Shown piece by piece: positions 1 through 9,077 of a DNA stretch of 64,000 bases (its first letter is position 1; each line of letters begins with the position of its first letter). The position numbers and the translations under genes are program-made. The stretch is from Qipengyuania sp. JC766 (GTDB taxonomy: Bacteria; Pseudomonadota; Alphaproteobacteria; Sphingomonadales; Sphingomonadaceae). Below the pieces are notes generated by a model. It had not been told where the DNA came from. It made no database searches and saw only the letters and a program-made list of their open reading frames with translations. The DNA lies in assembly GCF_040717445.1 (NCBI RefSeq), contig NZ_JBFEFL010000001.1:1488001-1552000 (forward strand), in the 5' to 3' direction.

Positions 1-644
1 TGCCTTGCCAATCGGGAAGGCGGCGATCCCGATTTTGCGATCCGTTGCAGGAAATTGTTGGCCGAAACCTCTCCGTCGCGGTCATTGTCGACAAGGCCGG
101 TGCTCCACAGCCGCGCTCCAACCGCCAAACGGTCTTCCACCTTGAAAAGGGGGAGATCATTCAGAAACGCGATCTTGCGTGAAGACGGGTTGTGGCCCCC
201 ACCAGGCAGCGCCCGGATCAGCTTGTCCCATTCATCATGCGTGGAACACCGCGCAAGCGTCAAGATAATTGCCCGCTCAATGTCGTCGAGCTTCAGCATC
301 TTCGCCAGCCAGTCGATCCGGCGATCAAACGACGTGCGCTTTATCGTTCCACCGCTAGAATTGCCCCTAACCAGCCGACGCAGCAAAGGGGGATACTGCT
401 GACTGGTGAGCAGCTCCCAGTCCTCCTCGTTATCGAAAGCCTTGTTCGCAGGCTCGGCGTTCGTCCATGCTTCCAGCAGCTCCGAACCGCACTTGCGAAG
501 CTGCTGATCGGACATCCGGCTGACCACGTCACACCATGTCTGCGCGAAGAGCCTAGCTTCTTCGTTGGAAGAAATGGACGTTTCGGATCGGCGGTGGCTA
601 TGGCGGTGGCGACGCCTCAAGCGGTGGAGTTCTGATTCTGTCAT
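1..644 (-). CDS. Probable AAA+ ATPase, N-terminal part (runs off the left edge)
   Basis: An uninterrupted minus-strand frame runs from an ATG at 644 to position 1 with no stop, about 214 codons. It starts MTESELHRLRRRHRH. It contains an acidic-alpha-helical stretch (DRRIDWLAKMLKLDDIERAI at about residues 103-122) and, further on, DRLAVGARLWSTGLVDNDRD. This order resembles the N-terminal region that precedes the ATPase module of a family of alphaproteobacterial AAA ATPases; the Walker motifs would lie outside the window, so the family is inferred. It is divergent from the uracil-DNA-glycosylase-like gene at 769. Ribosome-binding signal before 644 is weak. A different helical accessory protein is possible. 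Confidence 0.5.
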   Translation of the reverse strand, partial: MTESELHRLRRRHRHSHRRSETSISSNEEARLFAQTWCDVVSRMSDQQLRKCGSELLEAWTNAEPANKAFDNEEDWELLTSQQYPPLLRRLVRGNSSGGTIKRTSFDRRIDWLAKMLKLDDIERAIILTLARCSTHDEWDKLIRALPGGGHNPSSRKIAFLNDLPLFKVEDRLAVGARLWSTGLVDNDRDGEVSANNFLQRIAKSGSPPSRLAR

Positions 645-768
645 GCGCTTCTGATATGTGCGAGGTGCGACAGAATTGGTCGTGGCAAGCGATCCAACTT
701 AGTGAATGCGGTTGTCCAACGAGAATGTTGCGTTTCAAATCGCGATAGAATGGGGAAAGGATGCCAGC

Positions 769-1452
769 ATGAAGAATCTTCAAAGGATCATTTATGCAAT
801 GCCGGACCGAATTCTCGATCGGTCGGGTTCCATTTTCTACTCGGCACCCGCTGCCTTTGAGGGTAAGCGCGAGATTTATATACTCGGACTCAATTCGGGG
901 GGCGATCCTGCAGCGCAGCAAGAAAACACGATTCGCAAACATTACGAGGAATGGGCAGAGCGCACTGAGGCTTACTCTTCTTATGTGGATGAAATCTGGG
1001 AGGGATCAGTCGCTGGCGCGCATGGGATGCAACCGAGGATTCGGCACCTGGCCAAGCATCTTGGCATAGACCTGCGGCTAACCCCTTCGAGCAACGTCGT
1101 ATTCGTGCGCAGCGCGACAGAGGCAAAGCTGGAAGCCGAAAAGAAGGAACTGCTAGATGCCTGCTGGCCGGTGCATCAGGCGGTCATCGACGAGCTCGGT
1201 ATCCGTAGCATTATCTGCCTCGGGAAGACTGCCGGATGGTGGGTTCGCGAGCGCCTTGGCGCGCACAAAGAGCTCGACAGCTTTCAGGAAACGAACAAGC
1301 GTGGGTGGTGGAGCACCGCCCATCTCTCGCCCGAAGGCAAGGTGGTCTGCACGCTGACCCATCCCGGACGCGTCGACTGGAGCAATCCGGATGCTGACCC
1401 CGCGGCTATGGTCGAGCGGGTCTTGAGAAACGATTTGAGGCCTCAAACGTAG
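769..1452 (+). CDS. Uracil-DNA glycosylase-like fold protein
   Basis: About 227 residues. Seen: an early GLNSGGDP segment, NVVFVRS in the middle, IICLGKTAG, and a late LTHPGRVDW. These match in order the substrate-pocket loop, central strand, alanine/glycine-rich strand and His-Pro loop of the uracil-DNA glycosylase superfamily, so a base-recognition or DNA-repair role is inferred. The first motif is not a clear match to a named UDG family, so catalytic activity is uncertain. The ATG at 769 is preferred over 706 because GGAAAGG lies about eight bases upstream. It stands alone on the plus strand inside the island, divergent from the ATPase-like gene, and may belong to the same defence or maintenance function. 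Confidence 0.55.
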   Translation: MKNLQRIIYAMPDRILDRSGSIFYSAPAAFEGKREIYILGLNSGGDPAAQQENTIRKHYEEWAERTEAYSSYVDEIWEGSVAGAHGMQPRIRHLAKHLGIDLRLTPSSNVVFVRSATEAKLEAEKKELLDACWPVHQAVIDELGIRSIICLGKTAGWWVRERLGAHKELDSFQETNKRGWWSTAHLSPEGKVVCTLTHPGRVDWSNPDADPAAMVERVLRNDLRPQT

Positions 1453-1579
1453 AACAACATCAGCAAATACAGTGATCGCTGGTCCACCGACTTGTTGCGG
1501 TCATCGAGACGACTAAACTGATCCGATTTCATTTAAAGCCACGATGAGCGTCATGATCGTAACGTTCTTTGGAATCAAT

Positions 1580-2758
1580 CTACCGTCGAATTTCGGGAAT
1601 TGCGAACTCGGTTAAAATAATAGGACTGCCTTTTTTCGAAGCTTCCTTTTGTGCCGACGACATCAGTTTCCGAAGGGTTTTGGTAGCAAATTCTTCAGAG
1701 GGAAATTCAACGAGTGGATCGCTCTCGAGGTAGGTAAAATCTCCTTGCCAATTCAGCGAGACATACAATCTAATGAAGGCATTCTCTGTCTCTTCTGGAT
1801 CAATCTCAACCACATATCCAGCCTCAACGCGAGACCAGCCATCCCCTTTCATTTTCTTTAGCGATGCGAGAAAATAAATAAAAATGTTCGCGGACGAAAT
1901 TGCTGACGACGGCAGTTCATCATCATCATTTGACGACCGCTGCAGCTGTCGAATCATCTTGTCTCGATCACAATAACGCGTAACCCAATACCTGGACGTT
2001 GGTTTCTGAGAGCAATTTTCTAAATTTGCCTCATGAAACCATGAGCCAAGTTCCAATGCATTCTCGACAAGCTCCGCCAGCAATCTGGGTGCTCGCAGCG
2101 TGGTATATGCGTTTTGCAGACGGCCCATACCGCGCGAATGAATGCCTGCGATCTGAACTGCCATCAATGTGAGAGCCCGTCCATCATCCTCTAAAGGGAT
2201 CCTGCGATACGACGTCACCCCTATCTCCTCCAAATAGTCCGCAATCATCGCTGACAGCGGTTGATCGACCAAATCCCGAGTAGTTTTATGAAGATCGCGA
2301 AAACGCAGGTCGAAAGATCGCGGATGCTTTTCAGACTCCAACACCTGCAGTGTCTGTTCCGGTATGTAACGGCTGAAGTGGACGAAAAAGCGGTCAGATT
2401 CCGATTTTAGCCATGCAATGTAGTCCTGAGTTTGCATGACGTTCTTCTCGCTTCGATGATCGTCTTCCTTCACTTCGACAAGAATACGTTCCTGACCTCT
2501 GGTTAGGATGGCAAGATCGGCGCGCCTGCCTGAAACATAAGCACGCTCCACCTCAAACTGTGCTTTACCGGCGAGAATTTGCTCGCGAAGGTGGCTTGGT
2601 AAATTACCTAATCCGGAGCTTTGCAAAAACTCCAAGAAGATTTTCGGCTCTCGCCTTCCGAGTTCTGCGAGCATCAGGGAGATTAGTCGACCCGAAAACC
2701 TGTTATTCAAGTTTGATCTGATCGAAGAGAAAAATCCGTTTGCCATCAATTCATTCAA
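1580..2758 (-). CDS. PD-(D/E)XK nuclease-like protein
   Basis: About 392 residues, last gene of the island's minus-strand cluster. Residues 69-111 show a nuclease-core pattern: GRRADLAIL with Asp81, then RILVEVKEDD with Glu95 and Lys97, followed by Gln109 and Gln111 in the next helix. This is the D...ExK arrangement of PD-(D/E)XK nucleases. The C-terminal 250 residues are not recognised. The longest frame opens with TTG at 2758, overlapping the end of the DUF2779 gene by eight bases; an ATG at 2746, four bases after that gene's stop, is an equally plausible start. Either way the two genes look translationally coupled, which argues that the products act together. Target and partner are unknown. 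Confidence 0.6.
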   Translation of the reverse strand: MNELMANGFFSSIRSNLNNRFSGRLISLMLAELGRREPKIFLEFLQSSGLGNLPSHLREQILAGKAQFEVERAYVSGRRADLAILTRGQERILVEVKEDDHRSEKNVMQTQDYIAWLKSESDRFFVHFSRYIPEQTLQVLESEKHPRSFDLRFRDLHKTTRDLVDQPLSAMIADYLEEIGVTSYRRIPLEDDGRALTLMAVQIAGIHSRGMGRLQNAYTTLRAPRLLAELVENALELGSWFHEANLENCSQKPTSRYWVTRYCDRDKMIRQLQRSSNDDDELPSSAISSANIFIYFLASLKKMKGDGWSRVEAGYVVEIDPEETENAFIRLYVSLNWQGDFTYLESDPLVEFPSEEFATKTLRKLMSSAQKEASKKGSPIILTEFAIPEIRR

Positions 2759-4232
2759 CCAGTCGCTTGCTAATGACCACCATTGCCCACGTATCCCGTT
2801 CGCAATAGGCTTTCAGCGCATCGGCCAAAGCCTCCCGTCGTAATATGCTGCACCCAGGATCCGCCGCCTCATGCCACGCCATCTGCGCGTTCCCACCATC
2901 CTTAACCTCGAGCGTAGCATAATCCAGTTCGGGCGCGATGGTCGGCAGGACAGCCTTGATTGACCAGCTTCCACGCTGATCCCTGTGATACCAGTTGTTG
3001 CGTGTGACGGGCAGGAGATCGACGGTCGCTTCTGCCATGGCTAGCAGCGGCTCAGCCAAATCCGGCTCCCACCCGGCCAGATCACGCAGCACACGGCGTT
3101 CGAACGGCGCATAGTAGGCGATGAGGGTCGCATCGCCTGGCACCATCTGGACCAGCGCCTCGGCGCAGGCGCGACGGGGATCGCTGCCATCGCAGGTGAG
3201 GAATTCGTGATGCGTGATCGTCCCGTCTTCCTGTTCCAAGTGGAGCGAGAACTGGAACGGGATCTGCTGATAGGGCCGTGCCCCAATCCATCTCGGAACG
3301 GCAGGCGCAATGGTTTCGAAATCGAGCCAAGCCCGCGGCCAGCCCCATTTTGCCATTTCCCGGCGCGCGCCTTCCGCATCGTGGAAAGGAACGCCGTCGC
3401 GTGTCGCTGCCAAGATCTGCGCGTTGGTGCCACTGAGGTTATCCGGCGAGAGGTCGAGGAGGTTCTCGATGCCTTTCTTCTGCCATTTCTTGCCGCCTCC
3501 GCGCGGAAGGACGGTAACCGGCCATTCGGGGCCTGACGGCAGGTCGCGCCCGCAATAGGCCGCGAATTCGCATTCGAACGGCGAGGAGCAGTGATCGCCC
3601 ATCTCCAGCTCCGGTTCCTCGCCCGCGAGCACAGCTCTTGCCTGCTGCACCAGCACGGCGCGGCCAGCTATCGTGTCCTCCAGCTCGTCCAGAAGATCGA
3701 CATCGGCGAATAGTCCGGCATAATCGCCCGTCCGGGTCAGTTCGAATGTCTTGTCGACGTGCCGGATCGCCGCACTTTCCAGCTCCAGGCCAGCTTCGCG
3801 CAGGACCCACACTTGCGTCGCAAGATCGCCGCGATGGTAGTCTTTCACCCCTGTCGAGCTTTTCACCTCTGCTGCGCGCCACGCATCGCCCTCGCTTCGC
3901 TCAAGCACATCGACGCGCACCAGAACGCCCTCATGCTGAAAAGTGGCTTCGAAGATCGGGCCGGGATGCCCCTCGCCCAGCAGACGCGCCGTGGTAGCAA
4001 GCGCGGTCGTCAAATCAGGCTCTGCATCAACCATCACTCCTTGGGGATGCAGCGCACAGGCAATCTCTCCCACTTCGTTGCCCCCAACAAAGCGCATCTT
4101 CGCGCCATCGTCATATTGCGCGAATTCGGGTCGGTGGACCGACAACCAAAGTTTCTTCGGGCACTGCTCGAAAGAGGTTATGCGTGACTTGGAAAGGCCG
4201 GGGCGGCGATGTGGTTTCGTATGGTGCATCAC
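2751..4232 (-). CDS. DUF2779 protein: Cas4-like Fe-S nuclease fused to DEDD exonuclease
   Basis: 493 residues with two nuclease modules. The N-terminal half has Cys24 in SFEQCPKKLWL, then Asp108, Glu122 and Lys124 (VDVLE...AAEVKSS) and Gln140, then Cys215, Cys221 and Cys227. One early and three late cysteines around a PD-(D/E)XK core is the pattern of the iron-sulfur nucleases Cas4 and AddB. The C-terminal half has WLDFET (Asp304, Glu306), AYYAPFE near 373-378, Asp405, and YCERDTW (Tyr476, Asp480), the layout of a DEDDy 3'-5' exonuclease. Known: the latter half corresponds to family DUF2779, of unknown biological role. All catalytic positions appear intact. Inferred: DNA processing in a defence or mobile-element context. 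Confidence 0.8.
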   Translation of the reverse strand: MMHHTKPHRRPGLSKSRITSFEQCPKKLWLSVHRPEFAQYDDGAKMRFVGGNEVGEIACALHPQGVMVDAEPDLTTALATTARLLGEGHPGPIFEATFQHEGVLVRVDVLERSEGDAWRAAEVKSSTGVKDYHRGDLATQVWVLREAGLELESAAIRHVDKTFELTRTGDYAGLFADVDLLDELEDTIAGRAVLVQQARAVLAGEEPELEMGDHCSSPFECEFAAYCGRDLPSGPEWPVTVLPRGGGKKWQKKGIENLLDLSPDNLSGTNAQILAATRDGVPFHDAEGARREMAKWGWPRAWLDFETIAPAVPRWIGARPYQQIPFQFSLHLEQEDGTITHHEFLTCDGSDPRRACAEALVQMVPGDATLIAYYAPFERRVLRDLAGWEPDLAEPLLAMAEATVDLLPVTRNNWYHRDQRGSWSIKAVLPTIAPELDYATLEVKDGGNAQMAWHEAADPGCSILRREALADALKAYCERDTWAMVVISKRLVE

Positions 4233-4291
4233 ACTCTACTACTTGATAGCTGCGACAGATATGGTCGCGCCTGGTCTGACTTGGCGATCCG

Positions 4292-5149
4292 TCATTTCAA
4301 CGAGGCAAGAAAGCTTGTCGGCGAGAGGTCTGCATGAGCGCTCAAGGGAGGACGAAGCGCGAAGGCCCTAGGCTGGCGAGCGAAGTCCCAAAGCCGAATG
4401 AGATGCCAATGATCACGTCTTTCGTCGGCAACGGCGAGTTCGTTTGCACTGATGTGAAATGGTGTTCGCTCCCAGCCATTGGTTGTCTTCACTTCCAATA
4501 GACGCTCCGAGCCATCCGCCTCGAAGCTGGAGATGTCATAACCATAACCGTCTCCGTCCTCTGCCGATGTCCAACGCACCTTGCGAGCAAGGTCATCCCT
4601 CCCTGCGGACGCCAACCTTGCTCGTTCGTGCGCAAGCACTCGCTCTTCACCAGCTTTGCCCAAGGCGCGATTACGGGCGTCGCGTTCTGCCACGTCATAT
4701 TTCAAGCCGATCTTGGCCATGAATTCGGCGTCCACCGGGGATGGCTCATTCCTCTGCGAGGGAATGGGACCGAATTCGAGCAATCTCTCGGTCGGCGGAC
4801 CTATCCAATTTGCCGCCGCAGGGTCTCTTAGGCGCGACTGATGTGCTTGTGGGGCAAGCCAGTCCTCATTGCGATCTAGCCAGCGCAACACTCCATCTAC
4901 CAAGGCATACTGGAAATTCGCCGCCGGCTTGTAGCCTGGAATCCATGGTTGACCGAGACCGAGCAGGACTGCGCTGGTATTCTGATGTTTGAACTCTATC
5001 GAACCTCGACTGCGCCCGGTCCTCTTCTGTAATCCTCGATTGTGCGAGGCCTTATTATAACGAATTCCTGCGATGTCGTCCGCCAGCATCGCGAAATAGT
5101 CCGCAACGGCAGCATCGATCTCCGGGGCAGTCCAGTCTTCGCCCGCCAA
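4292..5149 (-). CDS. DUF3883 domain protein (restriction-endonuclease-like)
   Basis: 285 residues. The C-terminal part carries GYDISSFEADGSERLLEVKT, with Asp205, Glu219 and Lys221 in the D...ExK arrangement, followed by TPFHISANELAVA and HWHLIRLWDF, which together identify the DUF3883 family. That family has a restriction-endonuclease-like fold and often occurs with restriction or defence genes. The N-terminal 95 residues (ending YALVDGVLRWL) form a separate domain of unknown function also seen with DUF3883. The start is TTG, six bases after the HEPN gene's stop codon begins to be read out, with AGAGG just upstream; coupling to the HEPN gene is likely. No ATG is available near this position. 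Confidence 0.7.
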   Translation of the reverse strand: MAGEDWTAPEIDAAVADYFAMLADDIAGIRYNKASHNRGLQKRTGRSRGSIEFKHQNTSAVLLGLGQPWIPGYKPAANFQYALVDGVLRWLDRNEDWLAPQAHQSRLRDPAAANWIGPPTERLLEFGPIPSQRNEPSPVDAEFMAKIGLKYDVAERDARNRALGKAGEERVLAHERARLASAGRDDLARKVRWTSAEDGDGYGYDISSFEADGSERLLEVKTTNGWERTPFHISANELAVADERRDHWHLIRLWDFARQPRAFALRPPLSAHADLSPTSFLASLK

Positions 5150-5154
5150 ACCTC

Positions 5155-5844
5155 TTACTCTTCAACCACTGGATACATTGGCATCGCCCACTCGGCATCC
5201 GGATTGTCCATCATCAGGTCAATGAAGACAGGTAGCAAACAGCCGAGCAGTGATGCACCATCTCGCACCTGGTTGCGGTTTGCGCTGCTGTCCCAAGTGG
5301 CACCGCCATGCACGAGCTGGTTGCGCAGCACGTAAAGGCGATCGAACAGAATTGAGAGAACGATCGGCGTATTGCGCTGCGCCACCGCGCGGTTAGCCGC
5401 GGCACGAGCGCTTTCGAAACTCACCTCCCAACCGGCCCCGCCGAACTCGCCAGCCTGATGGCGCCAGAACGGGGCGAACACGAACTTGTTGTCTAGCAGT
5501 AGACGGATTTCCTGACTGAAACGCTCCCAGATGGCGTTGTATATCCGATTATCGCGATCCATCTCGACCAAGGTGGCAAAGAACTTGTCGAAGCGCTCAC
5601 GCTCGCTTCCAGCCTTACCCTCACCGTCTAGCGCGCGGTCCAGATCACCTGCATAGGCTGCGTTAAAGCCGATCCATAAAAGGATGAAGCGAACGTCGAG
5701 ATCGTTCTTTTCATTTTCGGCGCGCCTGAGCCAGCTCAGCGCCCGATGAACCCGCAGCGTGAGGGGTAGCGGAAAACCATCGCGTAGTTCGCGCTGCTTT
5801 TGCTTGAGCGTTTCGGGATCAAGCGGATTCTCGGATACAGGCAT
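5155..5844 (-). CDS. HEPN-domain protein with intact R-x4-H motif
   Basis: About 229 residues, largely alpha-helical by composition. Near the C-terminus it reads LYVLRNQLVHGGATWDS, giving an R-N-x3-H (R-x4-H) motif, the catalytic signature of HEPN ribonucleases, in the context typical of Apea-like or RiboL-PSP-like HEPN proteins. Inferred: a metal-independent RNase, possibly a toxin or effector that acts on host RNA after infection. The ATG at 5844 is chosen over the one nine bases upstream because AGGA then sits at good spacing. It is directly followed by the DUF3883 gene with only five bases between. No MNT-type antitoxin is visible beside it, so simple HEPN/MNT toxin-antitoxin function is not supported. 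Confidence 0.65.
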   Translation of the reverse strand: MPVSENPLDPETLKQKQRELRDGFPLPLTLRVHRALSWLRRAENEKNDLDVRFILLWIGFNAAYAGDLDRALDGEGKAGSERERFDKFFATLVEMDRDNRIYNAIWERFSQEIRLLLDNKFVFAPFWRHQAGEFGGAGWEVSFESARAAANRAVAQRNTPIVLSILFDRLYVLRNQLVHGGATWDSSANRNQVRDGASLLGCLLPVFIDLMMDNPDAEWAMPMYPVVEE

Positions 5845-6004
5845 GGCACTCATCCTAGATTAGTAGCAAATTCAAAACACTTGGGCAGACCTTTCTCCAA
5901 GTGCTGCTTGGTCCTAACGCATAGAAGCGGCTCAGGCCTGATCCCAAATCGAAGAATTCGCTTCTTGAGCGCTCACCACATTTGACGAATTCATTGGCCA
6001 CCCT

Positions 6005-7369
6005 TCAGCATAACTCTTCCGGGCACTCCCGAACCTTCCCCGACGCAAGTTCAATGAGAAATGGCTTTTTGCCTACATGGAGGCGCACGCCGTTATTGAT
6101 CCTCTCAATTTGACCAATGAGGATGTCCCCTCCGAATGGGAGACCTGCCAGTTCTGAGATGGGTCGACCGGTCATTGCAACGCGCTTCGCTTCCGGCACT
6201 TCAATCCCATACAACTCGAGCCTGTCTCGCGACCAGTTCAGCGTTCCCTGTCGCGAAAGTTCGGCGCGGATGGTCCCATCAGCCCAATAAAGCGCTCCAA
6301 AGATTGGCGCGCCATTTGTCGCGAGCTCGAAGGTTACGTCGTAGGACCGCGCGAGGACAGCAAGTAATTGCTCTGGCTCAACTGCACCGGACGCCAGAAC
6401 TGCTGCCGCTAGCTCCGTTATCCTGCCATCAGCGCCATGACTGCGAACCGCCTCAAGTTCCTCACGTCCCGAAATGATCTTCGAACAAGGTCCGAAGTAA
6501 TGACCTTGCTTAATCAAATTTCGTCTCGATGCCGGGATGTAGTCAAGGACAAGCCCGCGGCGCATGGCATCGTCAACTCCGAGGTAATGAACGTAGAAAT
6601 CAAAGTCCTCGTCGCTAAACTGTATGCTCATGTCGACGATTATCGCTTCAACCTCGGCGTCCACATCGGCTATAAAATGCTCGACGATTGCACGGACCTC
6701 GGCGCCCTGTCGCGCTATGTCTTTACGGCGCCTCCAGAACGCGCGCATATCTTTTACGATAGCTCGTGCGAACGCCTCAACTTGTTCGGGGAGAGCGGCA
6801 CAAAACCTTGGTGCGCCAGTTCCACTCGCCCAACACTGAAGGACCACGCCGCCAGCCTCCGGGTGCGGGGCGAAATGTAGGAGGTGTCGTTCATCAAAGT
6901 CACATACTAGTGCTGGTTGGGGAAGGCCGAGGCGGCGACAAGCCAGGTTGCGCGTCAGCCTTGCTATATGACGATGCAGCAGTTTGAGGTTTGGCCCGTG
7001 CGCATCACTTCGTGTCGTCCAGATAGGAAACAAACCTGGTCGGCCAGCATCCAAGACCCAGCGCTCCCCACCGATTAGAATTTCTCCGAGGCCTTTGGAT
7101 TCGAGGATGGTCCCAAACGGCAATACAGTTTGTGAGCCAGAATGGGTAAATGTGTAGCGGGCATCGAACGCGAGATCGCGGAGGACGTCATCCGAGATAT
7201 CAGAAATATGTTCGTCCGACGCACGGCTGATACGCCGATCTACCTCAATTGCTACGGCAATAGCTGGAGCTAGTGGTGTCCCATTTCCCGCGTCCATTCC
7301 GTCGAGCAGCGTCTCGAGACGCTCGTGAGAAATTGCTATTTTAAACTGATTCTGATTCCCGCTGAACAT
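6005..7369 (-). CDS. Island protein of unknown family
   Basis: 454 residues, ATG start with AGGAG nine bases upstream. No family recognised. Visible traits: no signal peptide or membrane segment; a basic patch around FWRRRKDIARQ; an aromatic-acidic stretch FSDEDFDFYVHYLG; a C-terminal segment rich in short beta-like strands (LYWADGTIRAEL, GVRLHVGKKPFLIEL); and scattered cysteines without a clear metal-binding spacing. It is the first gene after the integrase in the minus-strand direction and lies 160 bases upstream of the HEPN gene. It could be a sensor or regulatory component of the cluster, or unrelated cargo. Sequence alone does not decide. Confidence 0.6.
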   Translation of the reverse strand: MFSGNQNQFKIAISHERLETLLDGMDAGNGTPLAPAIAVAIEVDRRISRASDEHISDISDDVLRDLAFDARYTFTHSGSQTVLPFGTILESKGLGEILIGGERWVLDAGRPGLFPIWTTRSDAHGPNLKLLHRHIARLTRNLACRRLGLPQPALVCDFDERHLLHFAPHPEAGGVVLQCWASGTGAPRFCAALPEQVEAFARAIVKDMRAFWRRRKDIARQGAEVRAIVEHFIADVDAEVEAIIVDMSIQFSDEDFDFYVHYLGVDDAMRRGLVLDYIPASRRNLIKQGHYFGPCSKIISGREELEAVRSHGADGRITELAAAVLASGAVEPEQLLAVLARSYDVTFELATNGAPIFGALYWADGTIRAELSRQGTLNWSRDRLELYGIEVPEAKRVAMTGRPISELAGLPFGGDILIGQIERINNGVRLHVGKKPFLIELASGKVRECPEELC

Positions 7370-7516
7370 ACTGACATCTCCTGTAAGGACGCCATGTCGG
7401 AGAATTCCCTTCCATAAGGTTTATCAAGCACTTCTTTGCACGCACTGATTGTAGGAGCAGCCTCCCGAACTAGCGGCTTCGACAATCCCAAAACATGTTT
7501 GAAAGGCTTTGGCCTC

Positions 7517-8686
7517 CTAAACGGCGATGCTCGCTAACGCCATTTCGGCATCATCGCGCACGAGATGCCCATAGTGCTTTTCTATCATTGCCACACTCGT
7601 GCCGGACAGCTGTGCGACCGTAAGGATAGGTAAGCGCGCGCGCACGAGATCCGTGATGACGCTGTGACGGAGGGTATAGGCGGATACGGCACCTGGCAGT
7701 CCAACGGCGCCGACGGCCTTCTTGATTGGGTGTTTCCAAGCGTCCTTGTTCCAATGCGCTCCACCCGGTCGTGAAAAAATGTAGGCGCCCGGCAATTTAC
7801 CCTTCACTTGGTTGGCAAAGAAATCGGCGATCACGGGTGGCAGCAAAATTTGGCGAGGATTGTCGTTTTTATCGTAGCCGACAATCAAGGAACGAGTGCG
7901 CACATCGAATTCGCCAGCCGCGAGCTTTGCGAGCGCGCCTGGGCGAAGTGGTAGCAGACAGAGACCCTTGACGAACGGCTTGGCTTCTTCGCTCGTCGCA
8001 TCGATCAATCGCTTCCGTTCTGCTTTATCAAGATACAGTGGACGGCGTTTATCGGCACCTTTGTGGGGCTTTAAAGCTTCTTGCCATGCAGCCTCTGTGT
8101 TCGGTGGCCCTTCCATCAGCACCTGACCTAAGGCTGCGCGCAACGGCACCATATCTCGATTGACAGTTGACTTCTCGCGTTCCTTCCAGCGTTTCTCCCC
8201 CTTATTGCTCCTTGTGAGTAAGGCAGGTGTCTCCTCCAGCCGCTTACGCCATGCGCGCAAATGATGCCTCCGCAGCTTGTCGAGCTTCACCTTTGCGATC
8301 GGATCGGAATAGACGTGGCGTCGGAAGACACCCTCTGCAATTGCACCGGGTTTCTCTCGTAAATATGCCTCGCAAGCATCCGAAACCGTCACGAGACTGG
8401 CAGCGCGAACCCCTCCGCTCTCCACGGTATCAGCCCAGGTTTCGGCATCGGCCTTTGCTTGCTTGAACACGTCGTGTCCACTCAGCCTCCCGTAGTCTCC
8501 GAGACACTTGCGCGAATAGCGGTTGGTATCCGGATTATAGGCGCGAGCAAACCACGTTCCTCCGACCTTTTTCAAGGATGGACTGTATCCAAGGTAACAG
8601 CCTTGGCGAAGGCGCTGCCAATGCGGATCGCCCTTGTCCTTCGGCACCAACCTTTCCCGCTCCCCAATGCGGCTCAGATCCGTCAT
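7517..8686 (-). CDS. Tyrosine recombinase / integrase
   Basis: 389 residues from the ATG at 8686, chosen because GGAAGAAG stands directly upstream and the protein then begins MTDLSRIGERERL. A longer frame to 8827 would run into the tRNA fragment. The N-terminal arm-binding region (GTWFARAYNPDTNRYSRKCL) and a core-binding helical region precede the catalytic domain. Catalytic elements seen: Arg in LLPLRPGALAKL, Arg in YTLRHSVITDL, and the nucleophilic Tyr in MIEKHYGHL. The first histidine of box II is replaced by Tyr and the later GH by GT, as in some alphaproteobacterial integrases. It faces away from the att fragment 135 bases behind it and is expected to recombine at the tRNA anticodon region. 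Confidence 0.92.
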   Translation of the reverse strand: MTDLSRIGERERLVPKDKGDPHWQRLRQGCYLGYSPSLKKVGGTWFARAYNPDTNRYSRKCLGDYGRLSGHDVFKQAKADAETWADTVESGGVRAASLVTVSDACEAYLREKPGAIAEGVFRRHVYSDPIAKVKLDKLRRHHLRAWRKRLEETPALLTRSNKGEKRWKEREKSTVNRDMVPLRAALGQVLMEGPPNTEAAWQEALKPHKGADKRRPLYLDKAERKRLIDATSEEAKPFVKGLCLLPLRPGALAKLAAGEFDVRTRSLIVGYDKNDNPRQILLPPVIADFFANQVKGKLPGAYIFSRPGGAHWNKDAWKHPIKKAVGAVGLPGAVSAYTLRHSVITDLVRARLPILTVAQLSGTSVAMIEKHYGHLVRDDAEMALASIAV

Positions 8687-8820
8687 CTTCTTCCAGAACC
8701 ACCCTTCCTCGAAAACCCTGTAAAAAACCTGTAAAACGGTGGTGAACAACCACGACCGTTGACGCTTGTTTTTACTGTATTTTTCTGTTCGGGTAAAGCC
8801 GCAATTGTCCGTAACCCCCT

Positions 8821-8867
8821 CCTTCACACGGGTGGGGTCGCAAGTTCAATCCTTGCCGCGCCCACCA
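8821..8867 (+). other. Attachment site: 3' fragment of tRNA-Val(CAC)
   Basis: These 47 bases read as a tRNA from the last base pairs of the anticodon stem to the CCA end. The loop TTCACAC carries anticodon CAC; the variable region is followed by T-arm stem GCAAG, loop TTCAATC, stem CTTGC, then acceptor strand CGCGCCC, discriminator A and CCA. Upstream of 8821 there is no D-arm, and the 5' side of the anticodon stem pairs poorly, so this is not a functional tRNA gene. The break at the anticodon is the usual crossover position for tyrosine recombinases. The expected partner is a complete tRNA-Val(CAC) at the opposite island end, outside the window. Confidence 0.8.
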
Positions 8868-9077
8868 TGGCCCGACAGCGGGTTTATGGCCCGTCGGGAG
8901 CCCTCCCATCGCGGATCTCCTGTTCGTAAAATCGGATCGCCGTTCATCTGGCGTATTGCGCGCGGGGATAGGGCGCCCTTTCAAACGTTAAGTCCGTGCT
9001 TCGAAACCTTTTATCGACGCGTTCGTGCAAAGGTGCGATATGCATTCGACTGCGGTCAGTGAAAGAGACGCAAGGCC
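8868..9077. other. Non-coding stretch between island end and sensor kinase
   Basis: No convincing gene lies here. Just after the tRNA fragment an inverted repeat CCCGAC (8871-8876) / GTCGGG (8893-8898) could fold in the transcript, but it lacks a T-run; it may be the remnant terminator of the original tRNA gene. The remainder should hold the promoter of the sensor kinase at 9078, but no clear -35/-10 pair stands out. GCAAGG just before 9078 serves as ribosome-binding site. Confidence 0.5.

Follow-up and report, generated by a model that had tools for sequence, protein, structure and literature searches.

The presence of four adjacent nuclease-like genes near one edge of the DNA analysed here raises the question as to whether they make up a defence system of their own or are part of something larger. 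The window, i.e. the whole 64,000-nt stretch of Qipengyuania sp. JC766 that was analysed (contig NZ_JBFEFL010000001.1, positions 1,488,001 to 1,552,000), encodes on its minus strand a HEPN-type protein (P0001; 5853-5155), a DUF3883/NOV_C nuclease-like protein (P0002; 5149-4292), a DUF2779 protein (P0003; 4232-2751) and a protein with a PD-(D/E)XK-like pattern (P0004; 2758-1580). These coordinates, and the intergenic spacings of 5 nt, 59 nt and -8 nt, agree with a preliminary description of the locus. That description took the four genes for one transcript, which is unsupported, since a conserved DriD-type promoter box lies within the 59-nt gap and GC content changes sharply between neighbours (57% for HEPN and DUF3883, 61.5% for DUF2779 and 47.5% for P0004). 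The contrast in GC content also means that the four genes do not have a single recent origin. They are not one unit but form the integrase-proximal end of an island, in which the coherent unit is a larger regulon under the probable control of a WYL-domain regulator of the DriD type. Our favoured interpretation, which we consider reasonably likely, is that an island-borne activator sensing single-stranded DNA (ssDNA) switches on an arsenal of nucleases and helicases, and that HEPN-DUF3883 is a partner with transcription of its own.

The box in the DUF3883-DUF2779 gap is an inverted repeat that is shared among aligned DUF3883-downstream gaps although the downstream genes differ. In the window it reads CGACCATATCTGTCG (4253-4267, minus strand) and lies 35 nt upstream of the start codon of DUF2779. 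A second box, CGACCAATTCTGTCG (668-682, minus strand), precedes two divergent genes, with 38 nt to the start of AAA2, which encodes a tandem-AAA+ ATPase, and 23 nt to that of P0006. Within the 2.70-Mb genome there are three exact instances of the pattern CGACCRNNTYTGTCG, all of them in the island and on the coding strand, at 35 nt upstream of DUF2779, 38 nt upstream of AAA2 and 53 nt upstream of the gene for a TM0106 Cas4-exonuclease-helicase. The TM0106 box is located at G000:C1:1486571-1486585. Assuming uniform base composition, we estimate a chance expectation of about 0.3 per genome, and 55 kb of adjoining chromosome contain no box. Scans for generic sigma-70 promoters and for terminators gave results at chance level. 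A PafBC-type promoter was considered first and dropped, DriD being a better fit to both palindrome and spacing.

DriD of Caulobacter crescentus is a WYL activator that requires ssDNA, binds the consensus ATACGAC-N7-GTCGTAT over the -35 region and controls repair nucleases (PMC12340889). The Caulobacter driD-promoter sequence includes CGACCGTTTCTGTCGCA (PMC12340889), and the TM0106 box of the island is identical to it at 17/17 positions. The WYL protein encoded by the island is homologous over its full length to the DriD structures 9pfq and 8tp8 (E 9e-62 and 1e-61; residues 4-322 vs. 7-326 of 9pfq), spanning the winged helix-turn-helix (HTH), WYL and WCX domains, and the RRTAER stretch of its HTH is identical to that of DriD. 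Within the genome, PF13280 (WYL) is matched by this protein alone. As in the Caulobacter regulon, CGAC-N7-GTCG boxes are found at the promoters of the regulon genes, at a short fixed distance before the start codons. The island regulator differs in that it resides on a mobile defence island and has DUF2779, AAA2 and the TM0106-McrBC operon as its putative targets, whereas those in Caulobacter are didA, bapE, recJ and dnaG; for the island protein, ssDNA binding and induction are predictions. BrxR-type WYL regulators are likewise co-located with phage-defence genes and bind an inverted repeat (PMC9122601), and in this respect the island protein resembles regulators of the BrxR/CapW type. BrxR, however, has been described as a repressor, with repeats of 11 bp, and both sequence and box place the island protein with the DriD activator. 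A search of titles and abstracts in the literature returned no paper describing a DriD-controlled defence island.

Together, the putative regulon, which is well supported by sequence, would comprise the DUF2779 unit, AAA2 and an operon of TM0106, McrB-like, REase-ARP-like nuclease, McrC and WYL genes, with a DriD box in each of the three promoters, at the position from which an activator of this type would overlap the -35 region. The four genes of the window would then split into a HEPN-DUF3883 cassette with its own promoter and a unit in which DUF2779 is followed by a variable gene, P0004 in this island. Since the WYL gene is the last of the TM0106 run, in which the genes overlap or are separated by short gaps, the WYL protein would also activate its own operon. 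As a trigger we propose ssDNA arising from phage replication, incoming plasmids or broken chromosomes; the WYL protein would bind this ssDNA and then activate the three promoters, and the induced Cas4-exonuclease (DUF2779), Cas4-exonuclease-helicase (TM0106), McrBC-like and AAA proteins would degrade the DNA of the invader. HEPN, as a putative RNase that stops growth, and DUF3883, as a putative DNase, could work beside these proteins, as a partner that arrests growth or cuts DNA and is probably expressed independently. The combination of DNA-cutting genes, a DriD box and an island-encoded regulator suggests an immunity that is switched on by DNA damage.

Are these arrangements found elsewhere? 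The order HEPN-DUF3883-DUF2779 is present in four islands, all from Erythrobacteraceae: that of the window (together with the near-identical L001), G515, G519 and G943, which correspond to about three independent lineages since G519 and G943 are close relatives. In 4/4 of these triplet islands, AAA2 follows behind the variable slot and McrB-McrC-WYL is present in the same island; AAA2 of the window is 78% identical to that of G515. The three core genes are under purifying selection, with pairwise ratios of nonsynonymous to synonymous divergence (dN/dS) of 0.06-0.12 at saturated dS (about 2). Boxes precede DUF2779 and AAA2 in G515, G519 and G943 as well, and TM0106 in L002, L003 and L020. Those in G519, G943, L003 and L020 were located with a matrix derived from the sites of the window island, G515 and L002, which also placed boxes upstream of AAA2 or AddB-like genes (L122 and L101) and of the REase-ARP gene (L020). 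Outside the matrix set, the DriD-type-WYL loci J519, J943, L122 and L101 all have boxes, and the decayed L019 has none. Overall, boxes are present at 6/7 loci with a DriD-type WYL protein vs. 1/15 loci with other WYL proteins (Fisher p = 6e-4).

Several points weigh against the proposed regulon and its link to the HEPN-DUF3883 pair. The Fisher p value is optimistic because the islands share ancestry and the counts are non-independent. The box was found post hoc and the pattern was derived from those same sites, so that its uniqueness within the genome is partly by construction. G519 and G943 have weaker boxes before DUF2779 (16.4 vs. 24-25 bits), and since no DriD box is present upstream of HEPN in the window island, what ties HEPN-DUF3883 to the regulon is their co-location. 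The alternative that survives best is plain accretion, in which independent defence modules gathered in an integrase hotspot and the boxes came with some of them and co-regulate them, while HEPN-DUF3883, DUF2779, P0004, AAA2 and TM0106 do not cooperate. Such a history would fit the mosaic GC content, the variable gene after DUF2779, the presence of TM0106 in place of DUF2779 in L002, and the occurrence of HEPN, and likewise of DUF3883, alone or beside other neighbours. Nevertheless, gene order and promoter boxes are the same in four diverged islands and all three core genes are under purifying selection, and we therefore regard accretion without cooperation as unlikely.

The island itself measures 60.2 kb and is inserted at tRNA-Val(CAC) (G000:C1:1436605-1496868). 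Its left 48-bp repeat is the 3' end of the tRNA-Val gene (G000:C1:1436605-1436652), and an exact copy of this 3' end is located at 8821-8868 (plus strand), adjoined by the tyrosine integrase of the island (7517-8827, minus strand). Since the repeat is present at both ends and the integrase lies beside the right copy, positions 1-8868 of the window are the right end of an integrated island, whose tRNA-proximal 50 kb lie to the left of the window. For P0005 (454 amino acids (aa); 6005-7369, minus strand), whose gene separates the integrase from HEPN, none of the libraries used gave a family match. AAA2 (678 aa, minus strand) has its 5' part in the window (1-644) and runs left to G000:C1:1486608. 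The cargo of the island includes PDC-M16AB, a TmtA-like 2391-aa protein, DrmD, a DrmMI-like methylase, a DpdE-like SNF2 helicase and a DruE-like 1757-aa protein, in addition to the WYL regulator, McrC, the REase-ARP-like nuclease, the McrB-like ATPase, the TM0106 Cas4-exonuclease-helicase and AAA2. An insertion of the same type with decayed cargo is present in Altericroceibacterium indicum (L019/L129), where the same integrase (93%) is accompanied by a type I restriction gene and by what is left of HEPN and DUF3883.

This genuine defence-island setting lends support to the anti-phage or anti-plasmid role proposed in the preliminary description, although protection itself is something we infer. 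It also bears on a second alternative, namely that the regulon serves DNA repair or element maintenance, with the DriD-induced Cas4-exonuclease and helicase processing broken ends of the host or the element. The control of repair nucleases by DriD in Caulobacter (PMC12340889) would agree with this, as would the location of relatives of these genes near SbcCD- and AddAB-like genes on plasmids. Given an island that is dense in restriction and defence homologues, and an RNase-type HEPN and an McrC that fit repair poorly, we consider it quite unlikely.

HEPN-DUF3883 is a recurring mobile two-gene pair, and in the window it and DUF2779 look like separate transcription units. In P0001 (232 aa, minus strand), the first gene product of the pair, R177 and H182 form an R-x4-H motif that is invariant across 17 sequences, as expected from the conserved R-x4-6-H of the HEPN superfamily, and the predicted structure is all-helical (predicted local distance difference test (pLDDT) 82). 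Six of the 17 relatives match the Pfam family HEPN_RiboL-PSP (PF18735; best E 2e-5), which likens the protein to RNases of this type, but P0001 itself is below detection and has no Pfam match. Comparison of its fold with solved structures by Foldseek and VIA-align gave nothing above background, with the Csm6 chains 8pe3 and 6tug at a background Z of 4.5-4.8. The HEPN gene is present in 13/299 family genomes, and no relatives were found in viral contigs. P0002 (285 aa, minus strand) is a full-length match to PDC-S36, a PADLOC candidate (E 5.9e-118, covering positions 4-279 of the 280 in the profile), and its putative catalytic residues D205, E219 and K221 are invariant in 20 sequences. PDC-S36 is a single-gene candidate, whereas P0002 is paired with HEPN and linked to DUF2779; our literature search found no functional test of PDC-S36, which is listed as a candidate, no paper naming "PDC-S36" and none linking DUF3883 with DUF2779. 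The pair is also found where DUF2779 is missing, examples being L002-L004, L020 and conjugative plasmids of Sphingobium. Its frequency on conjugative plasmids and the distance of just 5 nt between the genes could point to a toxin-antitoxin-like pair that stabilises the element and is unrelated to the nuclease regulon. However, judged by their residues both proteins look catalytic, and neither is an obligate antitoxin because each occurs without the other, making this explanation improbable as well.

Some further observations concern relatives of the pair. Window and L001 are more than 99.6% identical in DNA sequence for DUF2779, P0004 and P0005, but 97.3% for HEPN, 94.3% for the integrase and 92.5% for DUF3883, a pattern that we read as local exchange of the HEPN-DUF3883 segment (window 4292-5853 vs. 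L001:8001-9562). A 378-aa DUF3883 (PDC-S36) relative with ~39% identity is present on 1207 plasmids, mostly from Escherichia, Klebsiella and Salmonella, and in the two E. coli regions examined (L051, L052) it adjoins aac(3)-IId inside IS26-bounded segments. Near TM0106 in L023-L025, L029, L123 and L124, HEPN relatives are accompanied by a different WYL subtype and lack a DriD box; in most of these loci WYL directly precedes HEPN, and a separate operator may exist.

In the DUF2779 protein P0003 (493 aa, minus strand), a Cas4-like PD-(D/E)XK nuclease with four cysteines is joined to a DEDDy exonuclease. C24, C215, C221, C227, E122, K124, D304, E306, D405, Y476 and D480 are invariant in 11 sequences and provide the four cysteines and the PD-(D/E)XK and D-E-D-Y-D residues that characterise a Cas4-like Fe-S nuclease combined with a DEDDy exonuclease. 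A DUF2779 gene as near as P0003 is present in 3/110 genomes searched. A survey of RNase H-like proteins lists TM0106-family RecB-like nucleases and DUF2779 as families F.13 and F.17 (PMC3985635); both have the Cas4-like domain and the DEDDy exonuclease, but DUF2779 is without the helicase. The two are alternate occupants of the slot behind HEPN-DUF3883, with L002 having TM0106 exactly at the place of DUF2779. Other sphingomonad DUF2779 genes (L098, L099, L100) follow an SNF2 helicase and an uncharacterised 550-620-aa protein, a different recurring module that once adjoins McrBC.

What about P0004? This 392-aa protein (minus strand) could equally start at ATG 2746 in place of the TTG, giving 388 aa and a 4-nt gap after the DUF2779 stop rather than an overlap. 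Of the intact-looking catalytic residues reported in the preliminary description for all four proteins, those of HEPN, DUF3883 and DUF2779 are present and invariant in relatives; P0004 has the D81/E95/K97 motif alone, and a nuclease fold could not be demonstrated. Structure modelling, proposed there as a check, gave the all-helical model of HEPN; the AlphaFold model of P0004 (pLDDT 36) is too poor for structure searches. Scans of profile libraries gave P0004 no family match beyond a weak PADLOC match to Cas4, and apart from the near-identical L001 island we found no homologue in plasmids, phages, viral contigs, 198 order genomes or 299 phylum genomes. As to whether the four genes are neighbours elsewhere, the first three are, in the four Erythrobacteraceae islands, but P0004 is confined to this one. 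Elsewhere, the slot after DUF2779 is occupied by a different PD-(D/E)XK-like 375-aa protein, a PDDEXK_4 protein or a uracil-DNA-glycosylase-like protein. The idea that this slot always holds a PD-(D/E)XK gene is true in three islands and fails in G943, where the glycosylase-like gene is found. A 52% identical relative of P0006 (248 aa; 706-1452, plus strand; uracil-DNA-glycosylase-like, with a relative matching PF03167 at E 1.9e-5) directly follows DUF2779 in G943 (L119).

A PADLOC profile scan of the four genes gave a strong match for DUF3883 only, weak Cas4 matches for DUF2779 and P0004 and none for HEPN, and no PADLOC system has profile matches for all four components. DUF3883 was already a candidate as PDC-S36; what is new is the DriD-type regulon on a mobile defence island. 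The view that a single four-gene operon constitutes one new defence system, for which the short gaps and the recurrence of three genes in order would speak, is very improbable given the conserved promoter box inside the operon, the restriction of P0004 to this and a near-identical island, and the recurrence of HEPN-DUF3883 without the others.

DriD is an activator with a known inducer, ssDNA, in the control of chromosomal DNA damage, while BrxR, the WYL regulator that has been characterised from a phage-defence island, is a repressor for which the natural ligand was not established. If the ssDNA-responsive regulon proposed here is true, it would provide a concrete signal and a promoter logic for turning on immunity from a mobile island, and it would account for the repeated reassembly of Cas4-exonucleases, TM0106, McrBC-like and tandem AAA genes. 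More tentatively, mobile islands that combine their own ssDNA-sensing DriD-type activator, a modular nuclease-helicase arsenal (DUF2779, TM0106, McrBC-like, tandem AAA) and a HEPN-DUF3883 effector pair may represent a damage-inducible, self-amplifying and SOS-independent immunity regulon that has spread horizontally across the sphingomonads.

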